64,000 nt of DNA from contig RAYY01000028.1 of the NCBI GenBank assembly GCA_003611875.1, forward strand, positions 1 through 64,000, in the 5' to 3' direction. Positions 43,393 to 62,531 of the stretch are shown in pieces; positions within the stretch are counted from its first letter, which is position 1, and each line of letters begins with the position of its first letter. The notes beneath the pieces were generated by a model that was not told where the DNA came from, made no database searches, and saw only the letters and a program-made list of their open reading frames with translations. Source of the DNA: a bacterium D16-56. Lineage in GTDB: Bacteria > Bacillota > Clostridia > Lachnospirales > Lachnospiraceae. Position numbers and translations under genes: made by a program.

Positions 43393-43429
43393 AACGGCTG
43401 GATGATTGAAAAAAGGAATGGAAAATGCC

Positions 43430-45982
43430 ATGAGAAAGACGCATAAAAAGCAGGCAGAAGATTTTATCAGGCTGCTGGAGCAGGCGCATCTGGAAATAAA
43501 AAGGTTTATGGAGAAGCAGCAGAATGCCGTGGCAGCGGATCTGCTTGGACAATGCCAGGAGGGAGCCATTGGACTGGGGAATCTGATTGAAAAAGAAGAA
43601 GGAGAAGACTTTCCAACCATCTCTCTTTTACAATCTTATTGCGAACAGACCTTTCATATTTATGAGGAATTGTGTCAGGAGCCTCAGGCCATAAATCCGG
43701 ACAGGACCTATAAAAGTCTGAAAAAGTCCCTGATTCAGATAGAAAACAGTGTAAAAAATGATATAAAAGTACGTTTGGAAGTAGTTTTTATGCCATATAA
43801 GGCAGCGATGTGGGACAGCATGGAAAGTGTATGGGATGCTGCCTTTAGGGATCCGGACTGCGATGTGTATGTTGTACCCATTCCCTATTATGAGCGAAGA
43901 AAAGACGGAACCTTTGGAGAACCTTGCTATGACGGAAACGTCATGCCGGATTATGTGCCGATAACCTCTTATAATACCTATCGTCTTCAGGACAGAATGC
44001 CAGACGTGGTATATATTCACAATCCATATGACCAGGGAAATTATGTGACCAGCATTGATCCCAGGTTTTATTCCTGTGAGTTGAGAAAGTACACCAATTG
44101 CTTAGTATATATACCCTATTACGTAACGGCAGGCGGAATGAGTGAAGGTCAGGCTTTGTGTCCGGCTTATTTTCATGTGGACTATATTGTAGTCCAGTCC
44201 AAAAGATTTATTAAGTTCTTTGATCCGGTGATTCCGGAAAATAAGTTTCTTCCATTAGGTTCGCCTAAATTTGACAAAGTGATCCAGATGTGCAGCAATC
44301 CACCCCAACCGCCGACAGAATGGGAGGAAAGAATAAAAGGACGGAAGGTTTATTTTTACAATACAAGCATTAATGGCATGCTGGATGATACGGAAAGGTT
44401 CCTGAAAAAGATGGAATATGTATTTCAATGCTTTCAGGGCAGGGAGGACGCCTGTCTGCTTTGGCGCCCCCATCCTCTTTTAGAATCCACATTTGAGTCT
44501 ATGAGAAAAGAATATAAGGCCCGGTATATGGAACTGAAAAAGCAGTTCATAGAAGAAAAAAGAGGGATTTATGACAATACTCCGGATATTACCAGCACAA
44601 TTGCTTTATCAGATGTGTATATAGGAGACGCAGGGACAAGCGTTACGTCCCTTTTTGGAATTGTGGGAAAGCCGCTTTTTATTTTTAATAACTATATTAA
44701 TACCCTTCCGGATTCCGACGACTGGCGCGGTGAAAAGATCAGTCCTGTTTTGGATGCATGGGGAAATGACTGGTATTATGTTTCGAGAAATAACCAGCTT
44801 TGGTATTCTGAAAAAAATGATTATCACTACAAATTTTACATGGACTTGGGAACCGGATACTCGGGGGGCAGATACTACATAAAAGCCCTGGCAATAAAAG
44901 ACAAGATCTATGTTCTTCCAGGCAGCGCCCAGAATCTTTTGATCATTAAAAACAAAAAGATCCGGAAGATTGAGTTTAAAACACAGATTTCGCGTCCTGG
45001 GGCATTCTGCAGTTATTGGTACAATGAAAAATACATATTCCTGTTTCCCAATCAATATCCTTTGCTTCTTCGATTCAATATAGAGACAGAGGAGCTGCAG
45101 GGCATAGACGGCATCCGTCAGTTTAATGTGAGAAACGTATCAGGAGAATGGCGCATCGGCGGCATCGGCGTATATGGAAATGAGCTGGTTTTTGCCTCTC
45201 CTGTGGATCATGAGTTTATCTTTGTGGATATGGATACTTTAAAGGCCAGAGGTCTGTGCAGCCATTCCAAGTGTAATCTGGGAACGCAAAGCATTGTAAC
45301 TGATGGGGACGAGCTGTGGCTTCTGCCTATGGACGGGAAGATCATTACCTGTTGGAATCCGGGTACAGGGGAAGTGAGGGAATATGGCGACATTCCTCAG
45401 GATTTTCGATGTATGAAATGGCCGGATGGCCGGGAATGTGAGGAGCGGCCGTTTGGAAATATTGTGTTTTCAAAGGAAGGGCCTAAGGAGAATATTGTAA
45501 TATCTCCTAACTGGGGAAATATGTACCTGACCCTTGACAGACAAAGCGGCAGGATGGAAAGGTGGGAGCCGCCGGTTGCATTTACAAATCGCGGAAAGAA
45601 CGGATACTTTACAGTGGGAACAATGGGCGGATTCTGTGTTTTTTATCGGAAGAAAGGAAAATCAGACCAAAGAATCTGGTATGCACCGGAAAGAAAGCTT
45701 TATGACGTAAATATTGATACAAAAGAATATAAAGAGGTGGAAATAGAATTTGACTATGAGGAGCTGAAAAAGCAGGAACCTGGTTTTATGGAGGAATCCC
45801 AGTGGCTGCAATATTGCTTAAATGAAAATGCATTTAACTCTTTAAAGGATCTGCTGGATGGAAATATAACCGGACATTCCTTTGACAAAGAGAGGCAGAT
45901 TAAGGCTTTTTCTAAAATCAATGCAGCTATAGACGGAAGATGCGGAGAAAAAATCCATCGGTTTGTTAAAGGAAAGGTGTGA
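43430..45982 (+). CDS. CDP-glycerol glycerophosphotransferase-like protein with C-terminal propeller-like domain
   Basis: This 850-residue protein starts with a helical segment. A GT-B-like region (about 110-440) has LEVVFMPYKAAMWDSMESVW, VYIHNPYDQGNYVTS and the TagF/TagB-type donor segment TIALSDVYIGDAGTSVTSLFG. Residues about 460-780 form repeating beta modules (YYIKALAIKDKIYVLPG, IGGIGVYGNELVFASP, GTQSIVTDGDELWLLP) like a kelch/propeller. It probably transfers a polyol phosphate to a glycan. The start is uncertain: ATG 43430 has AAGGA 12 bases upstream; ATG 43418 and TTG 43406 are alternatives. The next gene encodes a TagD-like domain, which supports the call. Confidence 0.7.
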   Translation: MRKTHKKQAEDFIRLLEQAHLEIKRFMEKQQNAVAADLLGQCQEGAIGLGNLIEKEEGEDFPTISLLQSYCEQTFHIYEELCQEPQAINPDRTYKSLKKSLIQIENSVKNDIKVRLEVVFMPYKAAMWDSMESVWDAAFRDPDCDVYVVPIPYYERRKDGTFGEPCYDGNVMPDYVPITSYNTYRLQDRMPDVVYIHNPYDQGNYVTSIDPRFYSCELRKYTNCLVYIPYYVTAGGMSEGQALCPAYFHVDYIVVQSKRFIKFFDPVIPENKFLPLGSPKFDKVIQMCSNPPQPPTEWEERIKGRKVYFYNTSINGMLDDTERFLKKMEYVFQCFQGREDACLLWRPHPLLESTFESMRKEYKARYMELKKQFIEEKRGIYDNTPDITSTIALSDVYIGDAGTSVTSLFGIVGKPLFIFNNYINTLPDSDDWRGEKISPVLDAWGNDWYYVSRNNQLWYSEKNDYHYKFYMDLGTGYSGGRYYIKALAIKDKIYVLPGSAQNLLIIKNKKIRKIEFKTQISRPGAFCSYWYNEKYIFLFPNQYPLLLRFNIETEELQGIDGIRQFNVRNVSGEWRIGGIGVYGNELVFASPVDHEFIFVDMDTLKARGLCSHSKCNLGTQSIVTDGDELWLLPMDGKIITCWNPGTGEVREYGDIPQDFRCMKWPDGRECEERPFGNIVFSKEGPKENIVISPNWGNMYLTLDRQSGRMERWEPPVAFTNRGKNGYFTVGTMGGFCVFYRKKGKSDQRIWYAPERKLYDVNIDTKEYKEVEIEFDYEELKKQEPGFMEESQWLQYCLNENAFNSLKDLLDGNITGHSFDKERQIKAFSKINAAIDGRCGEKIHRFVKGKV

Positions 45983-46080
45983 CAGGGAAATGTAAAAAGA
46001 GCCGCATAGGGAGCCGTTCATGGGATGAGATTAAAATGTATGGTTTGCAAATACAGGGAGAGGAGCAATCAGGAAGTGTT

Positions 46081-47454
46081 ATGATAAAAGTAATTACATA
46101 TGGGACATTTGACCTCTTCCATGAAGGTCATTACCGGCTGCTTCAGAGAGCCAAAGCGCTGGGGGATTATTTGATCGTAGGTGTAACTACGGAAGCATAT
46201 GACAAAACAAGAGGAAAGCTGAATGTTATAGATTCTCTGGTAACTCGGATTGAAAATGTGAAGAAGACAGGTTTTGCAGACGAAGTGATCATAGAAGAAG
46301 AACCTGGACAGAAATTTAATGATATTAAAAAATTTAACATCGATATCTTTACAGTTGGTTCCGATTGGGTGGGAAGCTTTGATTATCTGAAGGATTTCTG
46401 TAAAGTTGTATATCTGGAGCGGACAAAAAATATTTCCAGCACGATGCTTCGGGAAAGAAACAGCAGTATTCAGAGAATCGGAATCATAGGAACAGGACGG
46501 ATTGCGGAACGATTCATTCCAGAGGCAAGGCTGGTGAGCGGGGTCAGCACCCAGGGGGTGTATAATCCTCACGAAGAAAGTGCAAGGCGGTTTGCGGACA
46601 AATGGGAGATCAATGCCTATAAGGATTCGGAAGAATTTTACAAGGCAGTTGATGTGGTGTACATAGCATCCCCTCATGAGACTCATTATGAATATATAAA
46701 ATCTGCATTGGAGCATGGCAAGCATGTGCTGTGCGAAAAGCCAATGGTTTTGAAAAAGGCACAGGCAGAGGAATTATTTGACTATGCAAAAGAACGAAAC
46801 CGGATTTTATTTGAAGGGATCAAGACAGCCTATTGTCCGGGATTTCACAAGCTTTTAGGAATTGCCAGCAGTGGTACTGTGGGAAACATACGCAATGTAG
46901 AAGCTTGTTTTACAAAGCTTGAAAAGCCAAAGAGCAGAGAACTGACCAATCTGGTATACGGAGGAAGCTTTCTTGAACTGGGAAGCTATGTAATGCTGCC
47001 AATTTTAAAGCTTTTTGGACAGGAGTTTGAAGATGTCCGTTTTGATACGATTAAAGGAGGAAATGGGCTGGATCTTTTTACAAAGGCATCCTTTCGATTC
47101 CCGGCAGGAATTGCCACAGCGACCTGCGGTCTTGGCGTAAAGTCTGAGGGAAGACTGTTGATTGCAGGTACAAAAGGCTATATCGTGGCGGAGGCACCTT
47201 GGTGGAAGACTACATATTTTGAAGTGCATTATGAAAATGCAGGAGAGATTGAGAAATATTCCGAACGGTTTTTAGGAGACGGGCTTCGGTATGAGATCAG
47301 TGATTTTTTGTCCATGATAACCGGGAACGGCAGTAATGAATTTAAATTGACAAGGGGGGAATCTGCGGCATTGGCCGGGATTATGGAGGAGTTTATAAAG
47401 GCGGAAGGAAGGTGTGTCCGCAGCCGGAAACAGGAAGACTTTGATAGGATATAA
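46081..47454 (+). CDS. TagD-like cytidylyltransferase fused to a Gfo/Idh/MocA oxidoreductase
   Basis: The 457-residue protein has residues 1-130 as a glycerol-3-phosphate cytidylyltransferase: VITYGTFDLFHEGHYRLLQR (the HxGH motif) and RTKNISSTMLRER. From about 138 it is a dinucleotide-dependent oxidoreductase: RIGIIGTGRIAERF, VVYIASPHETHYEYIKSALEHG, and HVLCEKPMVLKKAQAEE with the EKP lysine. The two halves together suggest synthesis of a CDP-polyol after reduction of a keto-sugar or aldose phosphate, as TarI plus TarJ do with different folds. ATG 46081 follows AGGAAG. Its product should feed the preceding TagF-like enzyme. Confidence 0.82.
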   Translation: MIKVITYGTFDLFHEGHYRLLQRAKALGDYLIVGVTTEAYDKTRGKLNVIDSLVTRIENVKKTGFADEVIIEEEPGQKFNDIKKFNIDIFTVGSDWVGSFDYLKDFCKVVYLERTKNISSTMLRERNSSIQRIGIIGTGRIAERFIPEARLVSGVSTQGVYNPHEESARRFADKWEINAYKDSEEFYKAVDVVYIASPHETHYEYIKSALEHGKHVLCEKPMVLKKAQAEELFDYAKERNRILFEGIKTAYCPGFHKLLGIASSGTVGNIRNVEACFTKLEKPKSRELTNLVYGGSFLELGSYVMLPILKLFGQEFEDVRFDTIKGGNGLDLFTKASFRFPAGIATATCGLGVKSEGRLLIAGTKGYIVAEAPWWKTTYFEVHYENAGEIEKYSERFLGDGLRYEISDFLSMITGNGSNEFKLTRGESAALAGIMEEFIKAEGRCVRSRKQEDFDRI

Positions 47455-47464
47455 GGTGAAAACG

Positions 47465-48274
47465 ATGATTCAGCTGGATGAAAAGATGCTTCGTCAGCTT
47501 CAGATGATACAAATGGAAATGCTGGTTGAGGTAGATAGGATCTGCAGGAAATGCAAAATAAAATATAATATTATTGCAGGCACCTTGCTGGGGGCGGTTC
47601 GGCATGGCGGATATATTCCATGGGACGATGATGCAGATGTAGCCTTGCTCCGTCCAGAATATGAAAAGTTTCGCAGAGCCTGTAAAACAGAACTGGATAA
47701 GTCGCGATTTGTTTTTCAGGATCATAGAAATACAAAAGGCTATCGGTGGGGCTATGGGAAGCTTCGTAGAAAAAATACACTTTTTCTAAGAGAGCACCAG
47801 GAACATATGCCTTATATGCAGGGAGTTTTTATTGACGTTTTTCCTTTAGATGGGGTACCCAATAATTATTTCCTGCGAAGCTTGAAGAATTTTGAGTGCT
47901 TTTGTGTGAGAAAGATTTTGTGGTCTAAGGTTGGAAAAATCGGTGACAAGAACTTTTGGAAACGTCAGGTTTATAAGCTGTTGGATAAAATTCCAGAAAA
48001 AGCTGTATTTTACTATTACCATATTATGGTTCATAAGGCGAATGAGAAAAGGTCACGGATGGTACGTATTCTTATGTTTCCAACACCCAACAGTGAGTAT
48101 GGATATTATCGTAATTGGTATGAAAATAGTGAGGATATTGTATTTGAAGGAAAGGTGTTCCAGGGAATTAAGGATTATGACAGCTATCTAAGCTTTAAGT
48201 TTGGAAATTATATGGAGCTGCCGCCGACAGAGAAGAGAAAGGTGCATCCAGTCAGTAAAATCAAGCTGATTTAG
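47465..48274 (+). CDS. LicD-family phosphotransferase
   Basis: This 269-residue protein has the LicD core YNIIAGTLLGAVRHGGYIPWDDDADVALL and GVFIDVFPLDGVPNN. ATG 47465 has AAGGTG eight bases upstream and lies ten bases after the preceding stop. It is similar in layout to the LicD at 19838 but clearly diverged. It should attach a phospho-group such as phosphocholine or polyol phosphate to the glycan. Confidence 0.85.
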   Translation: MIQLDEKMLRQLQMIQMEMLVEVDRICRKCKIKYNIIAGTLLGAVRHGGYIPWDDDADVALLRPEYEKFRRACKTELDKSRFVFQDHRNTKGYRWGYGKLRRKNTLFLREHQEHMPYMQGVFIDVFPLDGVPNNYFLRSLKNFECFCVRKILWSKVGKIGDKNFWKRQVYKLLDKIPEKAVFYYYHIMVHKANEKRSRMVRILMFPTPNSEYGYYRNWYENSEDIVFEGKVFQGIKDYDSYLSFKFGNYMELPPTEKRKVHPVSKIKLI

Positions 48275-48286
48275 AGTGTTAGAGAC

Positions 48287-49048
48287 ATGATAGAGGAAAA
48301 GAGAAGCAATGAATTGCGGATAACAAGTATTCAGCATTTTTGTGTGGGAGATGGGCCTGGAATACGCACTACCGTTTTTCTGGCAGGCTGTAATATGCGA
48401 TGCTTATGGTGTCATAATCCGGAAGCTGTTATAGAAGACATATTTAAGTACTCTGTTTTAAATGTTTCAGAAAGTGAATTGTTTGAAGAAATATGTGAAG
48501 ATAAGATGTTTTTTGAAAATTCCGGCGGCGGAGTGACTTTTTCTGGCGGAGAGCCCGTTATGCAAGCAATCCAGTTAAAGAGGATATTGAAAAAATGTAA
48601 GACGGAAAGTATTTCTACAGCAATTGAAACAGCGGGAAATTACGCTCTTAAAATACTGGATTCTATATTGGACTATATTGATTTGATTATTTGGGATTGT
48701 AAAGCCGTATCCAGAGAAGTTCATATAAAATGTACAGGGGTTTCTAATGAGCAGATTTTAGAGAACCTTAAGGTAATAAGCAGTAAAAATAAGACCTTAT
48801 GGGTACGGATTCCTGTTGTTTGGAATGTAAATATTACGGAAGAAGAAATGAACCATATGGGAAAATATCTTACGAGGATAATGCCTGAACGGGTGGAGTT
48901 AATGCCATATCATAAGATGGGGATATCCAAATATGATCAATATAATCTGGAATATAGGTTAAGAGATATAGAACCACCTACAAACGAACAATTAAAGTTG
49001 TGTTGTAATATATTAAAACAATATGATATTAATGCAACCTATGAATAA
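48287..49048 (+). CDS. Glycyl-radical enzyme activating enzyme (radical SAM)
   Basis: This 253-residue protein has RITSIQHFCVGDGPGIRTTVFLAGCN then MRCLWCHNPE; the cluster cysteines are C35, C39 and C42. GGGVTFSGGEPVMQ follows near residue 83, and DCKAVSREVHIKCTGVSNE in the middle. This is the PflA-type activase pattern, without the eight-cysteine ferredoxin insert of many glycyl-radical-dehydratase activases. Its likely client is the glycyl-radical enzyme at 51199. It starts 12 bases after licD, in the same operon. Confidence 0.9.
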   Translation: MIEEKRSNELRITSIQHFCVGDGPGIRTTVFLAGCNMRCLWCHNPEAVIEDIFKYSVLNVSESELFEEICEDKMFFENSGGGVTFSGGEPVMQAIQLKRILKKCKTESISTAIETAGNYALKILDSILDYIDLIIWDCKAVSREVHIKCTGVSNEQILENLKVISSKNKTLWVRIPVVWNVNITEEEMNHMGKYLTRIMPERVELMPYHKMGISKYDQYNLEYRLRDIEPPTNEQLKLCCNILKQYDINATYE

Positions 49049-49068
49049 AAGAAAGTATATGGAGTGAT

Positions 49069-50016
49069 ATGAAAAAGATATCTGTTATAATTCCGGTCTA
49101 TAATACAGAAAAAGAATTAAGCAAATGTTTATATAGTGTTCAAAATCAGAGTTACTCAAACTTAGAGATTATCTGCGTTGATGATGGTTCAGATGACGGT
49201 TCAGACAAAATTATAGATAAATTTGGAAAGAAAGATTCACGATTTAAGGTCCTTCATCAACAAAATGCAGGGGAGAGTAATGCTAGAAATAAGGGATTAC
49301 AAATGGCAACTGGGGATGTGATTGCATTTTGTGATTGTGATGATTGGATAGAATACAATATGTATGAAGAAATGATAGATGAGATGAATAAATACGATTT
49401 GGATATGATAGCGGCGGGATGGTGTAAGGAAACCTATGAGGATACAGAGATAATTAGGAACCTTTTACCTGTTGCCGAGAACGTATTTGGCCGTGATCAG
49501 CTTCTAAAATATATTTATATGAGAGACAGCTATCGCGGATTTGCATATATGTGGAATAAGCTTTATAAAAGGGACATATTAAAAGATCTTGATGGAAAAC
49601 CGTTGTTTTTTGAAGAAAGTCTTTCATTAGGAGGGGATGTTGTATATTTAGGGAAAGCAGCATTAAATGTGGCAAGGGCGAAATATATAGCATCCCCTTT
49701 TTACCATTATAATCAAAGAATAAATTCGGGATGCCATACAGAAGATGTTGTGAAATTACGTGATTGGTTAAGAGCGTATGAAATGATAATAGAGGTTTTT
49801 ACAGATAAAAAGATCGATACAGAAACGATCAATTATGCAAAGCGTTTTTTGGCTTATCACAGCAGTAATGCAGCGGAAATTGCAATTGCTAAAAATTTGG
49901 AAAAACCCAAAAAGGTTTTCCAGAATTTTATGAAAGCATATGAAAGAGAATATATAGAATTGAATTGTTGTCATCCTGAAAGAATAGAAAGATATTACCG
50001 CTTGCTAGATGCTTAG
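49069..50016 (+). CDS. Family 2 glycosyltransferase
   Basis: The 315-residue GT-A enzyme begins KKISVIIPVYNTEKELSKCL and has IICVDDGSDDGSDKIID, AFCDCDDWIEYNMYE (DxD) and FEESLSLGGDVVYLGKAAL. It sits between the glycyl-radical activase and a radical SAM gene and is evidently part of the same glycan operon. The sugar is unknown. Confidence 0.88.
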   Translation: MKKISVIIPVYNTEKELSKCLYSVQNQSYSNLEIICVDDGSDDGSDKIIDKFGKKDSRFKVLHQQNAGESNARNKGLQMATGDVIAFCDCDDWIEYNMYEEMIDEMNKYDLDMIAAGWCKETYEDTEIIRNLLPVAENVFGRDQLLKYIYMRDSYRGFAYMWNKLYKRDILKDLDGKPLFFEESLSLGGDVVYLGKAALNVARAKYIASPFYHYNQRINSGCHTEDVVKLRDWLRAYEMIIEVFTDKKIDTETINYAKRFLAYHSSNAAEIAIAKNLEKPKKVFQNFMKAYEREYIELNCCHPERIERYYRLLDA

Positions 50017-50031
50017 GAAGGAGTATGTTGT

Positions 50032-51183
50032 ATGAAATGGAAAACAGAAGGGCATGAATTTGATAAAATGTATCATGAAATTGAAAGGAAGCATGCTTTT
50101 TTTCTTTTTGGTGCAGGTGATTATGGACATCAGTTTTTAAATGTTTTTAGGGATAGGATAAAAATAAAAGGATATATTGACAATGATAAAGAAAAACAAG
50201 GAGAACCGATAGAGGGATATCCCTGTTACGATTTAGAAAAAGTAAAACTCTTAGATTCTGAGGGGATTATTGTTACGATGTCCCAGATTGCCAGGGTTCA
50301 GCCGCTTAAGCAATTAAGAGAAAAAGGATACAGAAAAAATAAAGATTTTTTTATTATAGAGGAATTTTTATCAGTATATTTTGTTTACAAATATAATAAG
50401 GTATATTTTTCCAGTATCTCCTTTTTGCCAAGTACAGTTTGTAATTTAAAATGTAGATATTGCTTAAACTTTAATCCTTTTGCTAAGGAGTATTATATTC
50501 GTAAATGGGATGATTTGAAGGCAGATGTTGATCTGTTTTTTTCTTGTGTAGATTATATTATGTTGTTCCATGTAAGTGGCGGTGAACCATTGCTGTATAA
50601 ACACACAGTCAAATTGATAGAATATCTGGATGAATATTATGGAAACAGAATTACTACTCTTCGATTAGTTACAAATGGAACAATTGTTCCGACGGAAGAT
50701 GTTTTGGAAAGACTGAGCCGTTGTAATGTGCAAATAACTGTGGACGATTACCGAAAAGCAGTCCCTCAATATGACGATCAATTTGATATTTTGATTAAGA
50801 ATTTAAATAAATATAAGATTGATTATTATGTTAATAAAGTGGATTCTTGGATTGATTTGGCTCCAGAAAAGACAGATTATTCTAATTTAACAGAGAATGA
50901 ATTAATACTACATAGATCCCGGTGCAATCAGTCATGGCAGGAGTTACGAGATGGAAAACTATATAATTGTAACTATGCTGCCTATGCTGCAGTAGCTGGG
51001 ATTGCCGGCGAACAAGACAGCGAGGAAGTATTTAAACTGACGGATTTTTCTAAAGAAAAAAAGAAAGAATTGGTTGAATTTAGATTGGGGTACAGCAAGA
51101 AGGGATATACAAATTTTTGTAAAAAATGCAGAGGGTTTACTTCAGAAAATAATGAAAAAGTTGAGCCTGCTTTGCAGATCTAG
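50032..51183 (+). CDS. Radical SAM protein with N-terminal GAG-motif Rossmann domain
   Basis: The 383-residue protein has residues about 18-115 as a small Rossmann domain, HAFFLFGAGDYGHQFLNVF...GYIDNDKEKQGEPIEGYP, shared with neighbours. Residues about 130-370 are radical SAM: STVCNLKCRYCLNF (CxxxCxxC), LFHVSGGEPLLYKH, LRLVTNGTIVP. C-terminal cysteines (RCNQSW, LYNCNYA, NFCKKCRGF) suggest a SPASM-type auxiliary cluster. AAGGAG precedes the ATG. It probably modifies a sugar or an activated precursor, but the reaction is unknown. Confidence 0.8.
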   Translation: MKWKTEGHEFDKMYHEIERKHAFFLFGAGDYGHQFLNVFRDRIKIKGYIDNDKEKQGEPIEGYPCYDLEKVKLLDSEGIIVTMSQIARVQPLKQLREKGYRKNKDFFIIEEFLSVYFVYKYNKVYFSSISFLPSTVCNLKCRYCLNFNPFAKEYYIRKWDDLKADVDLFFSCVDYIMLFHVSGGEPLLYKHTVKLIEYLDEYYGNRITTLRLVTNGTIVPTEDVLERLSRCNVQITVDDYRKAVPQYDDQFDILIKNLNKYKIDYYVNKVDSWIDLAPEKTDYSNLTENELILHRSRCNQSWQELRDGKLYNCNYAAYAAVAGIAGEQDSEEVFKLTDFSKEKKKELVEFRLGYSKKGYTNFCKKCRGFTSENNEKVEPALQI

Positions 51184-51198
51184 AAAAAGGAGTATCAG

Positions 51199-53781
51199 AT
51201 GTTCATTTCTTATAAAGAACAGGTGTGTCAAGTATTGCAAAATCATGTCATGGATTCATTTGAGATTGCTATTTATCCTTTTGGATATAGGGGACAACAG
51301 GTAAAACAAATATTAAATACCGAGTTTCAGATCAAGGAAACCTATCTTGTAGATAATTATTATACAGGAGAAATACCTGTGCTAAAGGTCAAAGAATTTC
51401 TGAAAGTTTTGTCAGAGGGCATGCTTATATTATTGTGTTGTGAAAATGACGAGATAAAAAAACAAATCCGAGACACCCTATCCGAAATTCCAGAATCGCA
51501 GATTATAGATGTTTTTCCTAAACATAATATTTATGTTTCTTCCTGGAAGGATAAATCGATTGAAGGTTCTACGTTGGAAGATATGGAAAAACTTTATCAT
51601 GGTTTGAAAAAACTGGTTTTTGAGGAGGATGTTACCGTTTATTCTTTAATTAAACCGTATGAAAAGAACTTCTTGATGAATCAATTTGAAATATATTGTG
51701 TACAACAAATTAAAAATAGATCTTTGCAACGGGCATATAGTCTATTGTTGGCAGTGCTTTTAAAAGAACTTCAAGTTGAAGATGGAGAGTATTTGGTAGG
51801 CAAAGCAGCTTATCGCCAAATCAATAATACATATCCCACTGATGTATATGAAGAAATTTACTATTTAGAAAAGAATTCTCAGATAAATAGTAAAGAAGCT
51901 TTTTTAATAAAAGAAGCGTATGAAATGCGTTTGTTTACCAGATTTCCTGGAGGGCATACTGTTCCTGGGTATGAAATGATTTTAAAAAGTGGGATTAATA
52001 GGAAGTTGTCAGAGATAAAAAATAAATATATAGAAGAAAGAGAGGAGAAGGAAAAGAAATTATTTTATGAATCACAATTAATTGTCATTCGAGCATTGCA
52101 AGAGTTGATCAAAAGATATGCTGATGCATCCTATAGGAGTTCCAGTGCAAACAAAAAATTATTGAGAGTAGCCCGAAATTGTGAACATATTGCATATAAA
52201 GCGCCACGTAGTTTTGAACAAGCCCTCCAATTGTTGTGGTTATCACATGAGTTGATGATACTGGAAGGAAATATTAAGGGGATTTCTCTGGGCAGAATGG
52301 ATCAGTATTTATATCCATTTTATAAACATGATTTTGACCAAAATGTATTAAATAAAGAATTTGCAAGAAAGTTGATTTATGTATTTTGGAAAAAACTGTC
52401 CTTTGACAGAAGGGCATTATCCTTCCAAAATGTGACAATTGGGGGAGAGAAAAATGAAAAAAGCAAAGATGGAAACCCGTTGACAATCCTCTTTTTGGAA
52501 GCACAGATGGAAACGCGGGCGAATCAACCCATGTTATCGCTCAGAACGAACAAGTTTACTTCAAAAAAAATATGGGATAAAGCGCTGGAAGTGATTTCAA
52601 CAGGGATGGGAATGCCGGCTTTATTTAATGATGAAATGATCATACAGGCCAAAATGAGATGTGGAATTAGTCAAGAAGATGCAGAAAATTATTCCATTGT
52701 AGGGTGTGTGGAACCGGCGATTGGCGGAAAGGAATATTCCCATACAGAAGGACTAAGATTGAATGTGGCGAAATTATTGGAATTAATGTTCTTTGAAGGA
52801 CAATGTCCTGTAACGGGAAAAAAATATGCACTGGAAAAAGTATGTAAATTGAAAGAATATTCAGATTTTGATAGTTTTTATCATCAGTTCAAACGGGAAT
52901 TATTTTCTTTAATTCAAAAGGCATGCCATTTTTTAAATCAGGCAGATCTTTCCTATGGTGAAAATTGGCCGGCACCGTACATGTCATTATTCATGGAGGA
53001 AACTTTGAAAAAAGGAAGGGATGTTGCGAGAAAGGGAACAAAGTATAGTAATTTATCAATCAATTTTGCCGGAATGGCAAATGTGGTCAATTCTTTGATT
53101 GCAGTAAAAATAATTGTTTATGAAAAAAAGTTAATTTCTCTTTCAGAAGTTCCTATGATTCTGAGTGAAAATTTTGAAGGATATAAAGAGATTGAAAAAG
53201 AGATTTGTGATATTCCAAAGTATGGAAATAACAAAAAAATCGTGGATGAATTGATGCAGGAATTGACAGAACTGATTATTTCGGCGGCTGACCAAGGTAC
53301 GATTAATGAGGGCAGACTGTTTCAAACAGGATTTTATACGGTAGTGCTTCACGCGGAGATGGGAAAATACATGTTGGCGTCTTTTGATGGAAGAAAAGAG
53401 AGAACTGCCTTAGCAAGTTCTCTATCACCGACACAGGGAACTGACATTAGAGGACCTTTAGCGGTTTTTCAGTCTGTTTGTAAAACTCCTATGAATAAAA
53501 TGTCAAATGGTATGGTACTAGATTTAAGGTTTAGTCCGGATTTTTTTACAGATGAGAAAAAAGAAAGGTTGAAAGAGTCTATTTTAACTTATTTTTCTAT
53601 GGGTGGCATGGAAGTGCAATTAAATGTTGTAGATCAGGAAACTTTGAATCAGGCACAGTTATATCCAGATAAATATAGAAATTTATTGGTGAGGGTTTCT
53701 GGATTTAGTACTTATTTTGTAGAGCTGGAAAAGGAAGTACAGGACGAAATTATTTTACGTTATATGAATACTGAGCTATGA
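51199..53781 (+). CDS. Glycyl-radical enzyme with N-terminal Rossmann domain
   Basis: In this 860-residue protein, residues 1-130 form the cluster's Rossmann domain (IAIYPFGYRGQQVKQIL...TYLVDNYYTG). The rest is a PFL-fold glycyl-radical enzyme. The thiyl site is SIVGCVEPAIGGKEY (Cys503, Glu505); GCVEP is the form seen in choline lyase and hydroxyproline dehydratase. The radical site is LLVRVSGFSTYFVELEKE (Gly835). It should act as a lyase or dehydratase after activation by the enzyme at 48287. I know of no characterised glycyl-radical enzyme working in surface-glycan synthesis. AAAAAGGAG lies upstream of ATG 51199. Confidence 0.9.
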   Translation: MFISYKEQVCQVLQNHVMDSFEIAIYPFGYRGQQVKQILNTEFQIKETYLVDNYYTGEIPVLKVKEFLKVLSEGMLILLCCENDEIKKQIRDTLSEIPESQIIDVFPKHNIYVSSWKDKSIEGSTLEDMEKLYHGLKKLVFEEDVTVYSLIKPYEKNFLMNQFEIYCVQQIKNRSLQRAYSLLLAVLLKELQVEDGEYLVGKAAYRQINNTYPTDVYEEIYYLEKNSQINSKEAFLIKEAYEMRLFTRFPGGHTVPGYEMILKSGINRKLSEIKNKYIEEREEKEKKLFYESQLIVIRALQELIKRYADASYRSSSANKKLLRVARNCEHIAYKAPRSFEQALQLLWLSHELMILEGNIKGISLGRMDQYLYPFYKHDFDQNVLNKEFARKLIYVFWKKLSFDRRALSFQNVTIGGEKNEKSKDGNPLTILFLEAQMETRANQPMLSLRTNKFTSKKIWDKALEVISTGMGMPALFNDEMIIQAKMRCGISQEDAENYSIVGCVEPAIGGKEYSHTEGLRLNVAKLLELMFFEGQCPVTGKKYALEKVCKLKEYSDFDSFYHQFKRELFSLIQKACHFLNQADLSYGENWPAPYMSLFMEETLKKGRDVARKGTKYSNLSINFAGMANVVNSLIAVKIIVYEKKLISLSEVPMILSENFEGYKEIEKEICDIPKYGNNKKIVDELMQELTELIISAADQGTINEGRLFQTGFYTVVLHAEMGKYMLASFDGRKERTALASSLSPTQGTDIRGPLAVFQSVCKTPMNKMSNGMVLDLRFSPDFFTDEKKERLKESILTYFSMGGMEVQLNVVDQETLNQAQLYPDKYRNLLVRVSGFSTYFVELEKEVQDEIILRYMNTEL

Positions 53782-53790
53782 GGGAAAAAG

Positions 53791-55056
53791 ATGGGGAACG
53801 AAAAATTTGTGATATGGGGTATAGGCGAGAGAGGAAAAATTATAACAGAGTTTTTGGAAGACTCACAGATTCTTGCCTATATTGATACAGATATAAGCAA
53901 ACAAGGAATGGATTATTTAAATCATCCGATTATCAGTTTTGAAGAATATTTGGAGAAATTCCAGAATTATTTTATAATTGTCACGCCAGTAGAGGAGGAA
54001 CCGATTTTAAATCTATTATATTCCTATGGTATAGATAAATATTTTCAGATGTCTCACCTTCCATCTGAGATGCAGGGATATGGAGACAGAAAATTTTTAG
54101 ATCAGATACAAATACCGTTAACGGAAAGCGGAAATAACATTATTGTAGGAACTACATTATATTCTTGCATTTTATATAGAAAAATAGAAGCTATGGGATA
54201 TAAAAACGTATTTTTATTAAAAAAAGCTGGAGATAAAATGGCGAATCTAATCCAGAAAAATTATCAATATAATACGATAACTCAGATAGATAAAAAAAAC
54301 GATAGGATTATTGTTACGACTGCTATAAAGGAAAACAATGAAGGAGAAACCGTATTTGACTTCTTTGATATTTCCGAATATCTTCCTCAATATTACAATA
54401 AAGATATAGAAAAATTTCATAATATTCACAATGGAAAACGATGCTTCATAGTTGCTACAGGACCAAGTTTGAGACAAGATGATTTAAGAATATTATCAGA
54501 GAATAAAGAAATATGTTTTGGCGTCAACCGTGTGTTTTATGTTGATGAAAAGCTATGGAAACCGCAATATTATCTTTTTTTAGACAGAGCAGGGATGAAA
54601 CAGTATTGGGATCTTATCGCCGCATATAACGTTAAGGAGAAATTTGTAGGAGATTCTTATTGGAGAAGTATTGATTATAAAGGAAACATGCATGTAATAC
54701 ATGCTTTGACAGGACATAGTTTTGATATTTCTCCGAAATTTTCTGAGCGGATTGAGAGGAAAGTATATGCATACGCCACGGTAACCTATGCAGCGATACA
54801 AATGGCTGTTTATATGGGATTTTCAACTATCTATTTATTGGGGGTGGATTGCAGTTATAATAAAAACAATAAAGAAAATTACTTTTTTCAGGAACAAAAA
54901 AAAGATGTTCATAACCACTATGAGGATCGCATGTTAGTAGCATATAGGACTGCAAAAGAATATGCGGATACTCATGATATAAGAATTTTAAATGCATCAA
55001 GAGGGGGAAGTCTGGAAGTATTTGACCGTATTGATTTTGATAAGATTTTTATATAG
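53791..55056 (+). CDS. DUF115/MptE-like protein with N-terminal Rossmann domain, possible glycosyltransferase
   Basis: The 421-residue protein has residues 1-100 as the shared Rossmann domain (KFVIWGIGERGKIITEFLED...YIDTDISKQGMDYL). From about 205: GKRCFIVATGPSLRQDDLRIL, FGVNRVFYVDE, TYAAIQMAVYMGFSTIYLLGVDCSY and HYEDRMLVAYRTAKEYADTH. This pattern belongs to the DUF115/MptE superfamily, which is fold-related to GT42 sialyltransferases that use CMP-sugars. With kdsA, kdsB and kdsD nearby, a CMP-Kdo transferase is an attractive but unproven role. It starts 10 bases after the glycyl-radical enzyme. Confidence 0.6.
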   Translation: MGNEKFVIWGIGERGKIITEFLEDSQILAYIDTDISKQGMDYLNHPIISFEEYLEKFQNYFIIVTPVEEEPILNLLYSYGIDKYFQMSHLPSEMQGYGDRKFLDQIQIPLTESGNNIIVGTTLYSCILYRKIEAMGYKNVFLLKKAGDKMANLIQKNYQYNTITQIDKKNDRIIVTTAIKENNEGETVFDFFDISEYLPQYYNKDIEKFHNIHNGKRCFIVATGPSLRQDDLRILSENKEICFGVNRVFYVDEKLWKPQYYLFLDRAGMKQYWDLIAAYNVKEKFVGDSYWRSIDYKGNMHVIHALTGHSFDISPKFSERIERKVYAYATVTYAAIQMAVYMGFSTIYLLGVDCSYNKNNKENYFFQEQKKDVHNHYEDRMLVAYRTAKEYADTHDIRILNASRGGSLEVFDRIDFDKIFI

Positions 55057-55069
55057 GAGATGGAATACA

Positions 55070-56260
55070 ATGGTAAATTCCAAAAAGGAGTATTTACATA
55101 AAATAATAGACTATGCGAATAGGAATAAGAAATTGGCGATTTATGGAGCCGGCAATGTGGGAGTAGCATTATATCGAGATTTAAAGGATTTAGGGATAAA
55201 GGTACAATGTTTTCTTGTGACTTCACTTATTGGTCAAAGGACTGAAATTGACGGGATTTCAGTACTGCAAATCGAACAATTATCAGATGTAGATGAATTG
55301 GGAATCATAATAGGAGTTTCGCTGGGAAAGATATCAGGAATCAGAAAGAAACTGGTTCAATGTGGAATGACCAACTATATCACATTAAATCAAGAATATA
55401 TAGACACAATACTAAATGAGTTTAATGCACCTAAAATGGAGATTACGACAGTCATAGGATGTTCTGTTAATTGTAAATACTGTCCTCAAAAGCTGTTAAC
55501 AGCACAGTATTGGAGACAAGATAAGAACAGAGTGAGAGAAATGTCGTTGCAAGCGTTTCAGGGTTGTCTGAACAAATTACCTTCTGATACGCAAATTTAT
55601 TTTGCCGGTATGAGTGAGGCATTTTTAAATAAAGCATGTATTGATATGATAAGATATGCTATAAAAAAAGGCTATCGTGTAGGGGTATATACAACATGTG
55701 TAGGGTTAAGTCTTTCAGACTGCAAACAATTAATAAACATGCCATTGGAATCACTGATCCTTCATGTTCCAGACGAACATGACTATGCACACATTCCTAT
55801 GTCAGACGAATATTGGAGTGTTGTTGAAATGTTATTAAATGCAACAAAAGAAGATGGAACATATTTTGTGGACTCATGTTCTTGTCAGGGAATTCCACTG
55901 AAGAAATTTATGGAATTAAATCGTGGAAGGATCAGGGTTGAATCCTATTTACATGATAGGGCAGGAAATTTAGAATCTCAAGACGAGAATTTGGAATCAT
56001 GCGATTATGTAAATGGGCCTATTTATTGTTATCATAGTGGGGATAGATTGGATCATAATATACTCTTGCCAGATGGTACTGTTTTATTATGTTGTATGGA
56101 TTATGGAATGAGGCACCCTATTGGAAACTTGATCGAAAATACATATGAAGAAATAATGGAAGGGAAAGTATTAAATGATATACGAAAGGCTTTGAAGGAT
56201 GAAACAAAAGAACTTTTATGTAGAAAGTGTACATATGCCATAAAATGTAGAAGGGATTAG
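55070..56260 (+). CDS. Radical SAM/SPASM protein with N-terminal Rossmann domain
   Basis: The 396-residue protein has residues 20-110 as the shared Rossmann domain (KKLAIYGAGNVGVALYRDLKDLG). The radical SAM core begins EITTVIGCSVNCKYCPQKLL (CxxxCxxC) and includes IYFAGMSEAFLNKACIDM. The C-terminus, CYHSGDRLDHNILLPDGTVL then CCMDYGM...CRKCTYAIKC, is a SPASM domain. ATG 55070 follows GGAGATGG. It is the third radical SAM protein of this operon and probably modifies the glycan or its precursor. Confidence 0.82.
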   Translation: MVNSKKEYLHKIIDYANRNKKLAIYGAGNVGVALYRDLKDLGIKVQCFLVTSLIGQRTEIDGISVLQIEQLSDVDELGIIIGVSLGKISGIRKKLVQCGMTNYITLNQEYIDTILNEFNAPKMEITTVIGCSVNCKYCPQKLLTAQYWRQDKNRVREMSLQAFQGCLNKLPSDTQIYFAGMSEAFLNKACIDMIRYAIKKGYRVGVYTTCVGLSLSDCKQLINMPLESLILHVPDEHDYAHIPMSDEYWSVVEMLLNATKEDGTYFVDSCSCQGIPLKKFMELNRGRIRVESYLHDRAGNLESQDENLESCDYVNGPIYCYHSGDRLDHNILLPDGTVLLCCMDYGMRHPIGNLIENTYEEIMEGKVLNDIRKALKDETKELLCRKCTYAIKCRRD

Positions 56261-56265
56261 ATGAT

Positions 56266-57351
56266 TTGGAGAATATGGACAGGGAGAAATATATTGAAAA
56301 ATTTCGGAGTATTTTTACTGAATATATTTTTAAAAAGGATGACTTTGATAAATTGATCTTTTGGGGTATTGGAGCAACGACAGAAACCTGGTGGGATGAT
56401 ATGATAAAAGCCAATCTTATCCCAAAATATATAATCGATTCTAAAAAAGCACACACAAACTATAAAGATTTTGAACTTACTGATCCGAAAGATTTGGGAG
56501 ATATTCATGAATATATTATTGTAATTATGACAACGAATCCTTATACATATCAGGAAATTTTGTCACAGATTGAACAAGAGGATATTAAAGCTAAGATGGT
56601 ATGCTCATGTTCTGCAATTTATTATTGGAATTATCGTGGGCGAATCATAAATATGCTGAAGGAATTAGAAGATGAGGTTTCTTTGATTTCATTAGTAGCT
56701 ATGTTAGAGGCACGTATAGAAGGCAGGTTAATAGAAGAAAATTTAGTAGATCATAGACAATATTTCTCTTTACATCGTTTTTCCTGTTTAAACCCTAAGG
56801 AGGTTTATATTGATGCAGGTGCATTTGTTGGAGATACTTTAGAACGCTTTTTGTTTGAAAAGTTTGCTACATTTGATTCTTACTATGCATTTGAGCCATT
56901 AAGAAAAAATTATAAAGCTTTAGAGTATCGGGTGAAAAGGTTAGAAAGGGAATGGGGGATTGAAAGTAAAATTATATGCGTTAATTGTGGCTTGGATAAA
57001 ATCTCTGGAGAACAGAAAATTCTGTCAGTACTTCCAGTAAGTGCTCAAATCGAAACTGATATAGATAAAAACAAATTGGAGGTTATAAAAACAACGTCAA
57101 TAGATGAATATTTTTCAAACAGAAGAATCTCCACAATTAAATCTGATATTGAAGGTAAAGAAATGGATATGCTAAAAGGAGCAGAAAATTCCATTAAGAA
57201 GTGGAAACCACTTTTGGCAATCAGTATATACCACAAACCATCAGATTTGTTTCGGATATTTGAATTAATCAAATCATATCAAGCAGAATACAAAATTTCA
57301 ATTCGTTGTCACACTGCAAATGGCGGAGACACGATTTTATATGCATATTGA
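56266..57351 (+). CDS. FkbM-family methyltransferase with N-terminal Rossmann domain
   Basis: The 361-residue protein has residues about 25-115 as the shared Rossmann domain in a diverged form (DKLIFWGIGATTETWWDDMI...YIIDSKKAHTN). From about 175 it is FkbM: VYIDAGAFVGDTLERFL (SAM loop), YYAFEPLRKNYKAL, and STIKSDIEGKEMDMLKGAEN. It is likely a SAM-dependent O-methyltransferase for a sugar. The start is TTG 56266, with AAGGGA nine bases before; ATG 56275 is the alternative. It comes directly after the radical SAM gene. Confidence 0.83.
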   Translation: MENMDREKYIEKFRSIFTEYIFKKDDFDKLIFWGIGATTETWWDDMIKANLIPKYIIDSKKAHTNYKDFELTDPKDLGDIHEYIIVIMTTNPYTYQEILSQIEQEDIKAKMVCSCSAIYYWNYRGRIINMLKELEDEVSLISLVAMLEARIEGRLIEENLVDHRQYFSLHRFSCLNPKEVYIDAGAFVGDTLERFLFEKFATFDSYYAFEPLRKNYKALEYRVKRLEREWGIESKIICVNCGLDKISGEQKILSVLPVSAQIETDIDKNKLEVIKTTSIDEYFSNRRISTIKSDIEGKEMDMLKGAENSIKKWKPLLAISIYHKPSDLFRIFELIKSYQAEYKISIRCHTANGGDTILYAY

Positions 57352-57379
57352 AAGGGCTACAAAAACTAAAGGGGATATT

Positions 57380-58129
57380 ATGGAAAAAGAGAAGATCATA
57401 GCAATCATACCAGCCAGATACCAATCAAGCCGTTTTCCAGGAAAACCATTAGCTTTATTAAACGGAAAACCCATGATTCAATGGGTATATGAAAATGTAA
57501 ATCGTGTAGAAGATATTATGGATACATATGTAGCCACAGATGACGTCAGGATTTTGAATTCTGTTAAAGATTTTGGCGGTAAAGCAATTATGACATCGTC
57601 AGAACATAGAAGTGGAACTGACCGGATAGCAGAGTGTGTGGATATTTTGAAATTAGATGAAAATGATATTATTTTAAATGTTCAGGGCGATGAACCATTG
57701 ATTCAAAAAGAAATGATGCAGGATTTAATTTCTACAATAAAGGATAGTGAAAGTTATATGGGAACCTTAAAAGAAAAAATAAGGAATACGGATGATTTAG
57801 AAAATCCTAATATTGTTAAGGTGATTACAAATATACATAATAATGCAATTTACTTTTCAAGATTTCCAATTCCTTACTGTAGAGAAAAGACAGAAAAGAT
57901 AGATTTATATCGCCATGTAGGCGTATATGCATATCGGGTCTTTTTTTTGAAAAAATACATAAAATTACCTGAATCAATGTTGGAAAAGGCGGAGTCATTA
58001 GAACAATTACGAGTTATTGAAAATGGGTATACAATGAAAGTAAAAGAGACGAAATCTATATCTATGGGAGTGGATACAAAGGAACAATTAAAAATAGTAG
58101 AAGAAATAATGAAAAGAGAAATGAAATGA
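57380..58129 (+). CDS. kdsB: 3-deoxy-manno-octulosonate cytidylyltransferase
   Basis: This 249-residue protein has [47 protein letters not shown] and [11 protein letters not shown]-type segments ([12 protein letters not shown]), all hallmarks of KdsB, which makes CMP-Kdo from Kdo and CTP. ATG 57380 is six bases after AAAGGGG; the frame extends upstream into the FkbM gene. It overlaps kdsA by four bases. Kdo genes are unusual outside Gram-negative bacteria. Confidence 0.93.
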
Positions 58130-58911
58130 AAAAAAAATTTGTTTTGCTGGCAGGTCCTTGTGTAATTGAATCAGAGGAAATGATTTTAAAGCTTGCTGAA
58201 AAATTAAAAAGAATTGTAGAAGAATTACCGTTGGATTTTTATTTTAAGGCTTCTTTTGATAAGGCAAACAGGACAAGTATGGAATCTTATAGAGGTCCTG
58301 GTTTGACAGAAGGGCTTCGCATTTTAGAGAAAGCCAAAAAAGATTGTGGAGTGAGAATTGTAACAGATATTCATGAGCCATACCAGGCTGATATAGTAAA
58401 GGATGTGTGTGATATTATTCAAATCCCTGCATTTTTGTGCAGACAGACAGATTTACTAGTAGCTGCTGCTAAAACAGGGAAAGCAATCAATGTAAAGAAG
58501 GCACAATTTTTGGCGCCTTGGGATATGCAGAATGTTGTCCATAAAATAGAAAAAATGGATAATAAGAATATTATACTTTGTGAACGTGGAACGAGTTTTG
58601 GATATAATACCTTGGTTGTGGATATGACATCGATAGTAGAAATGAAAAAATTCGGGTATCCGGTCATATTTGACGGAACACACAGTGTACAGAAGCCAGG
58701 GGGAAATGGAACTTCAACTTCTGGGAACAGAGAGTATATTCCAAATTTGACAAGGGCTGCGGTTGCTGCAGGTGCAGATGGATTATTTATGGAAACTCAT
58801 GAAAATCCGCAGACTGCTTTGTCTGATGGGGCGAATATGATAAATATAAGGGATTTAAAAGAATTGTTGTTACAGTGTTTGGAATTGCATGAAATGATAA
58901 CTAGGGACTAG
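58126..58911 (+). CDS. kdsA: 3-deoxy-8-phosphooctulonate synthase
   Basis: This 261-residue TIM-barrel enzyme has [73 protein letters not shown] and [12 protein letters not shown], all KdsA signatures. It condenses arabinose 5-phosphate with PEP. The presence of asparagine or cysteine at the metal position was not checked. The ATG overlaps the kdsB stop, and its own stop lies in the left end of the MITE-like element. Confidence 0.95.
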
Positions 58912-59076
58912 TACAGCCTTGCCTAAATTCCGGTGAATAAATAACTCGCTATCAGCACCCTGAAGCATGCCTGCGAAGCGAGTCGTAGATTCCACTACGC
59001 CGTCGCTTCACAGACGCACAGATGACACCGATATCAAGCAATTTATTCACCGAAATTTAAGCAATGCAGTACTAGT
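58907..59076. mobile_element. MITE-like element with ~36-bp terminal inverted repeats
   Basis: The left end (58907-58942, ACTAGTACAGCCTTGCCTAA onward) and the right end (59041-59076) are inverted copies differing at about five of 36 positions. Both include CGGTGAATAAAT toward the interior. The 98-base centre has its own hairpin (GAAGCGAGTCGTAG pairing with CTACGCCGTCGCTTC). It has no coding capacity. It separates kdsA from kdsD and overlaps the kdsA stop codon. Confidence 0.72.
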
Positions 59077-59085
59077 ACTGCATTG
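59062..59085. repeat. Perfect 24-bp palindrome at the element's right end
   Basis: CAATGCAGTACT is followed by its exact reverse complement. The outer half continues beyond the element end at 59076, as if a second terminal repeat began there. It is strong enough to form a hairpin in RNA, but no T-tract follows. Confidence 0.75.
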
Positions 59086-59125
59086 AATTTGGAATGATAC
59101 AAAATAATAAACAGGCGGAAACGAA

Positions 59126-60100
59126 ATGGATTTAGAAAGAAAGCTAGAAATAGCGAAAGAGGTATTTAGAAAAGAAATAAATACTCTGGAACATATACAA
59201 AATAATTTAGATTATACTTTTATACAAATAGAAGAAGCGGTTGCATCTTGTAAGGGAAAGGTTATTTTATGTGGGATTGGAAAATCAGGTCATATTGCCC
59301 GAAAGATTTCAGCAACTTTGGCAAGTCTTGGCACATCTTCTTTTTTTCTGCACCCTGCGGAAGCTTTACATGGAGATCTGGGAATGGTTTCTGAGGAGGA
59401 TACCATTATTTTAATTAGTAATAGTGGAGAAACAAAGGAAATAATACATCTTATGCCTTCATTAAAGGTCATTGGAGCTAAACTTATATGTATAACAGGA
59501 AAAAAAGAGTCAACTTTGGCAAAGGAATGTGAATTAGTACAGATTCTTGAAGTTAACAGGGAAGCTTGTCATTTGAATCTGGCACCTACATCAAGCACAA
59601 CAGCTTCTTTGGTATATGGAGATGCATTGGCAATTGTTATATCGGAGGATATAGGATTTAGTGCCTCTGATTTTGGTTTATATCACCCTGCAGGAACTCT
59701 TGGAAAAAAGGTTTTAATCAAAGCAAAGGATGTTATGGCCCAGGGAAGCGATTTGCCAGTAGTGAAAAGTGGATGTAAAATAACGGATGCCATTGTGGAA
59801 ATGAGCAAAAAAGGACTTGGTGTAATTGCAATTATCAATAATGAAGACAAGCTTTGCGGAATATTAACAGATGGAGATTTGAGACGGGCAATAGAGAAAA
59901 AGGCTGATTTGTATGGTGACATTATAGATTCTGTTATGACCCAGAATCCGCAATCTATTTATGAAGAAATTTTGTTGGTAGATGTGCTGCAAAAACTGAA
60001 GGAGAGTCGCCTTAATAATTATCCCGTAATAAATAGAGAAAAAAATGTGATAGGTATGATTACTTGGCAAATGATTATTAGAGAAGGGATTATTTTGTAA
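59126..60100 (+). CDS. kdsD: Arabinose-5-phosphate isomerase
   Basis: This 324-residue protein has an SIS domain with KVILCGIGKSGHIARKISATLAS, HPAEALHGDLGMV, ILISNSGETKEI and APTSSTTASLVYGDALA. Two CBS domains follow from about 205 (VMAQGSDLPVVK..., VMTQNPQSIYEE...). This is the KpsF/GutQ/KdsD pattern: ribulose 5-phosphate to arabinose 5-phosphate, the first step to Kdo. It lies after the MITE-like element but in the same direction as kdsB and kdsA. A Kdo-8-phosphate phosphatase (kdsC) is not seen. Confidence 0.93.
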   Translation: MDLERKLEIAKEVFRKEINTLEHIQNNLDYTFIQIEEAVASCKGKVILCGIGKSGHIARKISATLASLGTSSFFLHPAEALHGDLGMVSEEDTIILISNSGETKEIIHLMPSLKVIGAKLICITGKKESTLAKECELVQILEVNREACHLNLAPTSSTTASLVYGDALAIVISEDIGFSASDFGLYHPAGTLGKKVLIKAKDVMAQGSDLPVVKSGCKITDAIVEMSKKGLGVIAIINNEDKLCGILTDGDLRRAIEKKADLYGDIIDSVMTQNPQSIYEEILLVDVLQKLKESRLNNYPVINREKNVIGMITWQMIIREGIIL

Positions 60101-61235: not shown

Positions 61236-61277
61236 AAATAATTGGTTAGAGATATTGCTGATTGTTGATAACAAAGA

Positions 61278-62483: not shown

Positions 62484-62531
62484 ATTTTATAGAAAAAGAA
62501 TGGTTATTTGTGATGATAAGAGGAGGGTTAG

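Follow-up and report, generated by a model that had tools for sequence, protein, structure and literature searches.

Why should a glycyl-radical enzyme (GRE) be encoded among genes for a surface glycan? GREs are oxygen-sensitive radical enzymes known from small-molecule metabolism, and we know of no earlier GRE of glycan biosynthesis. The question is raised by a GRE and an activase encoded in the Lachnospiraceae bacterium D16-56, an anaerobe of gut type, in a stretch of 64,000 bases (hereafter the window, bases 1-64000 of the 69,720-base contig 122 of a 5.54 Mb draft genome), where both genes lie in an operon with a LicD gene and a TagD-like cytidylyltransferase fused to a Gfo/Idh oxidoreductase (TagD-Gfo). 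From sequence comparison we incline, with modest confidence, to the view that the pair was recruited into a variable glycan cassette, in which it would dehydrate a diol-bearing building block. The elements concerned are as follows.

48287..49048, + strand: GRE activase (radical S-adenosylmethionine (SAM) protein), 253 residues, without the ferredoxin-like insert (Pfam, NCBIfam, alignment)
51199..53781, + strand: GRE, 860 residues (Pfam, NCBIfam, tree)
51199..51576, + strand: N-terminal Rossmann-like domain (N-domain) of the GRE, residues 1-126 (profiles, AlphaFold2)
51955..51957, + strand: H253, at the column of HypD His160
52276..52278, + strand: K360, at the column of HypD Asp278
52705..52713, + strand: C503-V504-E505, the CXE motif of GRE eliminases
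52747..52749, + strand: E517
53701..53703, + strand: G835, glycyl radical site within RVSGFS

The enzyme pair

Two Pfam families covered the GRE, PF02901 at residues 227-722 (E 1.2e-117, 394.6 bits, cut-off 24.3) and PF01228 at residues 739-841 (E 6.1e-25, 88.2 bits, cut-off 22.2), and these matches are not due to chance. A sequence-only reading of the window had reported the thiyl cysteine with its partner glutamate (GCVEP) and the glycyl loop (RVSGFS), and both were found in the translation as C503-V504-E505 and G835. The PF02901 match spanned profile positions 128-647 only, so that the usual GRE N-terminus was not recognisable; the residues preceding the conserved His numbered 100 in the relative at locus L063, 145-149 in four sister GREs and 153-216 in nine other GREs. 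The H253 column corresponds to what we take to be His164 of glycerol dehydratase. According to PMC7077986, the CXE motif is conserved among GRE eliminases with unlike leaving groups, and the H160Q, D278N and E436Q variants of HypD lost activity.

In a tree of 54 rows from 55 collected GREs (the fragment L037 was left out), the window enzyme grouped with those of loci L042 and L063 (support 100/99), hereafter the glycan clade. The next clade out comprised the four sister GREs, from genomes G317, G403, G695 and G676, the seven enzymes grouping together at 100/100, and the CutC, HypD, YbiW, PflD and pyruvate formate-lyase (PFL) rows all fell outside the glycan clade. A second family draw, through G737, added no new row, its other match (G1090) having the coordinates of G317, and a scan of viral contigs for GREs gave a single fragment (L121), which was not used. 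The GRE missed every NCBIfam cut-off. The three clade members scored 445, 446 and 468 bits with TIGR01774 (PFL2/glycerol dehydratase subfamily, cut-off 678.2) and at most 383 bits with the equivalogs, whose cut-offs are at least 1000; the window GRE itself reached 335.8 bits for CutC (TIGR04394, cut-off 1050), 358.1 bits for HypD (NF043068, cut-off 1100), 382 and 331.6 bits for the sulfopropanediol dehydratases (NF048009 and NF048011, cut-offs 1000) and 80.7 bits for PFL (TIGR01255, cut-off 994). Searched against solved structures, the clade profile matched B12-independent glycerol dehydratase best (438.8 bits; next 414.6).

Column by column, H253, C503, V504, E505 and G835 were intact in all three clade members. 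Lys at the K360 column was confined to the window and L042 (2 of 55 GREs), and the E517 column held Glu in 7 of 55, all of them members of the glycan or sister clade. Glycerol dehydratase (1r8w) likewise retains the His, the Cys, the CXE motif and the Gly, but the columns of its H281, S282 and D447, presumably its substrate residues, hold K360, G361 and E517 in the window enzyme, and its N-terminal region could not be aligned with that of the window GRE. HypD and CutC resemble the window GRE as eliminases with a CXE motif, whereas each forms a separate clade, the HypD Asp278 column being Lys and the CutC Asp at the H253 column being His in the window. A choline-bearing substrate, as once suggested for this enzyme, is hence disfavoured by its position outside the CutC rows and by this Asp-to-His difference. 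The sister GREs share with the window enzyme the Glu at the E517 column and the Ser preceding the radical Gly, but they are only 34% identical over the alignment, carry no N-domain and lie in loci without homologues of the window operon.

The activase scored 239.2 bits with TIGR02494 (cut-off 174.35) and 208.5 bits with the PFLA model TIGR02493, below the cut-off of 231.75. In an activase tree, from which rows shorter than 230 residues (except L118) as well as L035 and L039 were left out, it grouped with three sister activases (98/99), mirroring the GRE tree; the G317 locus held no activase. TIGR02494 activases are defined by a ferredoxin-like two-cluster insert. The sister activases (L050, L055 and L056; 297-333 residues) had this insert with two CxxCxxCxxxC motifs, whereas those of the window and L042 (244 residues) had no such motif and lacked the whole insert in the alignment; motif-less activases also occurred elsewhere in the set, e.g. 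L025 and L028. The designation PflA-type, given by the sequence-only reading, therefore fits the size of the protein, while family and tree make it a GRE activase, one that lacks the ferredoxin-like insert.

The N-terminal domain and the glycan loci

The strongest evidence for a role of the GRE in glycan assembly is the distribution of its N-domain. No Pfam family matched GRE residues 1-130. AlphaFold2 modelled the window and L042 domains with a mean predicted local distance difference test score (pLDDT) of 84.1 and a predicted template-modelling score (pTM) of 0.76, strands and helices alternating. Aligned by hhalign with the Rossmann-like domains of neighbouring proteins, the GRE N-domain gave E 4.5e-4 with a probability of only 33, while 100 column shuffles reached at most 0.99 and the reversed profile 0.07. 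A profile built from the N-domains of the three GREs, searched over 761 open reading frames (ORFs), matched acyltransferase-like fusions in L101 (4e-16) and in L094 of the host genome (5e-11), the C-terminus of a GT2 glycosyltransferase in L103 (1e-5) and a 106-residue ORF in L102 (3e-4). The L103 and L102 sequences also fitted the neighbours' profile (1.2e-14 and 1.1e-11), which joins the GRE N-domain to the neighbours' domains. The proposal that the GRE shares an N-terminal Rossmann domain with its neighbours is thus supported by the fold and by these intermediates, the direct score being weak. The L101 and L094 fusions are like the GRE in their N-domain type and their LicD/TagD-Gfo loci and unlike it in their acyltransferase-like partner (Hexapep 27.2 bits, cut-off 27, in L101; 25.5 bits, below it, in L094).

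Among 21 genomes picked for carrying a TagD-Gfo locus, the N-domain occurred in 10 places in 7 genomes, namely the three GRE domains and seven others, and homologues of glycosyltransferases or of LicD were present in the loci of all 10. The seven others were joined to two hexapeptide acyltransferase-like proteins, two glycosyltransferases, two methyltransferase-like proteins (by eye) and one unknown partner. Neither Rossmann-type profile matched any of 129 ORFs in 10 other GRE/PFL loci, the four sister loci included, where the only matches to the window operon were GREs, activases and one Gfo/Idh-like protein (L046). This pattern supports the view that the N-domain belongs to glycan machinery. 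An earlier idea, that it indicates a cluster-specific substrate, is not supported, since partners so unlike one another mean that the domain marks glycan machinery and not one substrate. Foldseek returned nothing for it at E 0.001, and the top rows were generic alpha/beta folds, so no ligand is inferred.

The GRE and its activase are set in the following genes of the window.

43406..45982, + strand: 858-residue protein without a Pfam match, member of the locus core (Pfam, locus comparison)
45979..47454, + strand: TagD-Gfo fusion (family matches)
47414..48274, + strand: LicD family protein (Pfam)
49069..50016, + strand: GT2 glycosyltransferase (Pfam)
50032..51183, + strand: Rossmann-like domain plus radical-SAM protein, whose homologues adjoin the GRE in all three loci
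53791..55056, + strand: Rossmann-like and MptE-like domains (Pfam, profile)
55070..56260, + strand: Rossmann-like domain plus radical SAM/SPASM (start taken by eye as 55070, in an ORF that opens at 54992)
56266..57351, + strand: Rossmann-like and FkbM methyltransferase domains (Pfam, profile)
57320..60100, + strand: KdsB, KdsA and KdsD homologues, for activation and synthesis of Kdo (3-deoxy-D-manno-octulosonic acid) (NCBIfam)
60129..63827, + strand: three glycosyltransferase genes with the neighbours' Rossmann-like domain (family matches, profile)

All assigned genes from 43406 to 63827 lay on the plus strand, as had been described for an uninterrupted glycan run, with short gaps or overlaps except for 214 bases at 58912-59125; minus-strand ORFs overlapping assigned plus-strand genes were not counted as genes. 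Glycosyltransferase, LicD, cytidylyltransferase and Kdo genes were contiguous, which makes this a surface-glycan locus, and further glycosyltransferases were seen by eye on the remainder of the contig. The TagD domain resembled glycerol-3-phosphate cytidylyltransferase (114 bits). No transporter or aldehyde dehydrogenase appeared among the family hits of the operon genes, and Rfam at gathering scores gave no match within window positions 38000-64000.

All three clade members lay in LicD/TagD-Gfo glycan loci. L042 keeps 14 genes in window order, counting a TnpB-like gene, and adds a GDPD gene and a glycosyltransferase-like gene; its GRE is 58-59% identical to that of the window (59% over residues 1-860) and the neighbours 48-79%. 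L063, in genome G751, encodes an 858-residue-protein homologue, TagD-Gfo, a broken GDPD, LicD, a 139-residue N-domain ORF, a GRE 40% identical to that of the window, two radical-SAM proteins and a GT2 homologue. Eight bases are common to the N-domain and GRE ORFs of L063, whose separation may be a natural split or a frameshift. The sequence-only reading had predicted a separate, N-terminally extended clade beside glycan genes; the clade is separate from the known clades tested and its three loci are all glycan loci, while in L063 the domain is an ORF of its own. Neither of the findings named in advance as contrary, placement in a known small-molecule clade or homologues mainly outside glycan loci, was made for the glycan clade. 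Among the sister loci, one has a ribokinase-like gene and a ribose/allose-type ATP-binding cassette (ABC) system that stayed below model cut-offs, others have a sodium symporter (below cut-offs) or a TRAP permease (above its cut-off), and one was uninformative.

The locus core also exists without the GRE. Twenty loci were fetched around TagD-Gfo fusions, five of them short (6.9-14 kb, at contig ends); homologues of the 858-residue protein were present in 17 (two partial), LicD in 15 and GDPD in 12, and the GRE core in none of the 20, the sole GRE label (L101) being an N-domain match. In the window the G+C content is 0.42 in the core and drops to 0.32-0.35 once the activase is reached; L042 drops from 0.51-0.55 to 0.36-0.49 from LicD onward, and L063 shows no clear step. 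From the GRE-less cores and the fall in G+C it follows that the GRE sits in a variable cassette. Outside these loci the GRE was rare among the sequences searched. At E 1e-105, an order-wide scan matched 5 of 392 genomes (the window and four at 35-39%) and a class-wide scan 1 of 351, the window alone; 138 plasmid records matched the GRE, none over more than 80% of the query, the best at about 31% over 74%. A genome-contig scan with six peptide patterns from one protein reaches close relatives only, which leaves the rarity of the clade uncertain.

Two other assignments were weakened by these comparisons. TagD-Gfo is less likely to be the dedicated partner of the GRE, since 55 of 397 family genomes carry the fusion (E 1e-60) and the 20 fetched loci around it hold no GRE core; and the GRE is less likely to be a Kdo-pathway enzyme, since homologues of KdsA and KdsD and a weak match to KdsB are found in L103, where there is no GRE. 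Homologues of KdsA, KdsB and KdsD were observed within glycan loci at window 57320-60100, L042:16234-19988 and L103:13425-15900, in a family that, to our knowledge, is without lipopolysaccharide. The host genome has a second TagD-Gfo/LicD glycan locus (L094, contig 157), which also holds ABC transporter genes, a HAD hydrolase and the acyltransferase-like protein with the GRE-type N-domain, and in L101 (13101-15404) a LicD locus encodes an unusual nucleotidyltransferase fusion, a 768-residue protein joining an NTP-transferase to an SHMT-like PLP domain. Radical-SAM proteins recur in glycan loci, some with a Rossmann-like domain (window 50032-51183 and 55070-56260; L063:13318-15383), and are also present in the GRE-less glycan loci L098 and L099; they may represent a second radical step.

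Proposed reaction and competing explanations

In the reading that we prefer, the variable cassette of a Lachnospiraceae LicD/TagD-Gfo locus would have captured a GRE eliminase along with the activase that serves it, both related to a pair outside glycan loci. The activase would use S-adenosylmethionine to place a radical on G835, which would pass it to C503; C503 would abstract a hydrogen from a carbon that bears a hydroxyl group in a diol-containing building block, protons would be handled by E505 and H253, and the neighbouring hydroxyl would depart as water. This scheme is what the motif set predicts, and the chemistry probably does not differ from that of known GRE eliminases. The deoxygenated, aldehyde-level product could then be reduced, cyclised or transferred into the glycan, and the N-domain might tie the GRE to other glycan enzymes or give it a ligand in common with them. 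As substrate class we infer a polyol or an activated polyol, which is plausible because of the TagD likeness and the cytidine diphosphate (CDP)-linked polyols of capsules elsewhere. For the Campylobacter jejuni HS:5 capsule, CDP-6-D-glucitol is made by a cytidylyltransferase and a reductase (PMC10918830); the likeness to the window lies in a cytidylyltransferase plus reductase giving a CDP-polyol for a surface polymer, whereas the families are PF01128 and PF01370 rather than a TagD-Gfo fusion, and the portion of that source covered describes no radical enzyme. More tentatively, and rather doubtfully, the GRE might act directly on a nucleotide-activated (e.g. CDP-linked) or lipid-linked glycan intermediate, a radical deoxygenation within polysaccharide assembly. 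If that were true, terminal-diol dehydration of a polyol unit would yield a 2-deoxy aldose-like or 3-oxopropyl unit with none of the usual nucleotide-sugar dehydratases.

Several findings weigh against the preferred reading. The clade is known from three loci only, and the TagD-Gfo fusion is common without a GRE. In L063 the K360 column holds Gly and no activase lies nearby; its genome, G751, has one activase match, 45% identical to Escherichia coli PflA, so that either this one PflA-like protein activates both enzymes or the draft lacks the cognate gene. The GRE cassette brings with it neither a reductase nor an aldehyde enzyme, and the domain kinship is drawn from intermediates together with a direct score that is weak. 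When only the window sequence was searched, the solved relatives were headed by 8id1 (315.4 bits), an entry for formate C-acetyltransferase, with glycerol dehydratase second (309 bits), and an AlphaFold2 model of the whole enzyme from two sequences had a mean pLDDT of 41 and was not used.

The alternative that survives best, though an unlikely one, is a glycan-pathway GRE that cleaves another bond in a precursor or decoration, e.g. C-N, C-C or an ethanolamine-/choline-type elimination. LicD proteins can move phosphocholine, the L042 operon includes a GDPD-family gene, the K360 and E517 columns differ from those of glycerol dehydratase, and CXE is common to eliminases of unlike leaving groups (PMC7077986). 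This alternative has to reckon with an enzyme that lies outside the CutC rows, at 335.8 of 1050 bits, with His in place of the CutC Asp, and with glycerol dehydratase as its closest solved relative by profile. Somewhat less probable still is a fermentative or catabolic GRE that lies in the operon by chance and is unrelated to the glycan; the sister loci, without operon homologues and in three cases with transporter genes nearby, would suit it, as would a variable cassette that is G+C-low in the window, but three glycan loci, one with whole-operon synteny, the kinship of the N-domain with glycan enzymes, and operon family hits free of transporters and aldehyde dehydrogenases argue otherwise. 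A dead GRE retained as a scaffold, to which the missing local activase of L063 might point, is very improbable, given that all three members preserve the Gly, the Cys, the CXE motif and the His and that two loci keep a matching activase. A second PFL or formate supply is scarcely credible despite the PFL-like fold family, with 80.7 of 994 bits for the PFL model, CVE in place of the Cys-Cys pair that PFL carries, and a canonical PFL already among the two PFL-like genes of the host genome (G737 likewise has two PFL-like genes).

A TnpB-like gene upstream, and significance

Upstream of the core formed by the 858-residue protein and TagD-Gfo lies a TnpB/Cas12f-like gene (PF07282, E 6e-10; window 41752-43065, + strand), with copies in five genomes: the window, L042:39-1274, L095:1534-2907, L100:6051-7394 and L110:2618-3970. 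In all five aligned full-length copies the columns that we take to be the three RuvC acids hold Ser or Ala, Lys and Lys. TldR proteins are reportedly RNA-guided, TnpB-derived repressors, and the TnpB-like protein, which resembles them, may regulate the glycan locus. Between this gene and the core, a non-coding stretch at 43070-43310 is conserved and matched in L042, L095, L100 and L110; it runs through blocks such as GGGGAGCGAAG, a hairpin whose sides co-vary (TTACTC/GAGTAA, TCATCC/GGATGA, CTGCTC/GAGCAG) and then ACCAATATGCCTTATT, and has no Rfam match. This stretch may encode a guide RNA for the TnpB-like protein. Its 16-mer, with one mismatch allowed, occurred once in the host genome, and this search found no target for the putative guide.

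In the open-licence PMC literature, the titles and abstract starts listed placed no GRE in work on capsular polysaccharide, exopolysaccharide, teichoic acid or nucleotide sugars, and nothing there joined a glycyl radical enzyme with anhydroglucitol; as far as that literature goes, the placement and domain make-up of this GRE are new. A sugar-phosphate GRE has reportedly been described in work on YbiW/PflD. The presence of a GRE, its activator and a sugar-machinery domain in one operon points to an unrecognised radical step toward unusual surface sugars, and offers a defined enzyme pair for testing. A GRE within glycan machinery would, if true, widen the uses of radical chemistry in anaerobes, and could account for unusual deoxygenated residues carried by gut commensals.

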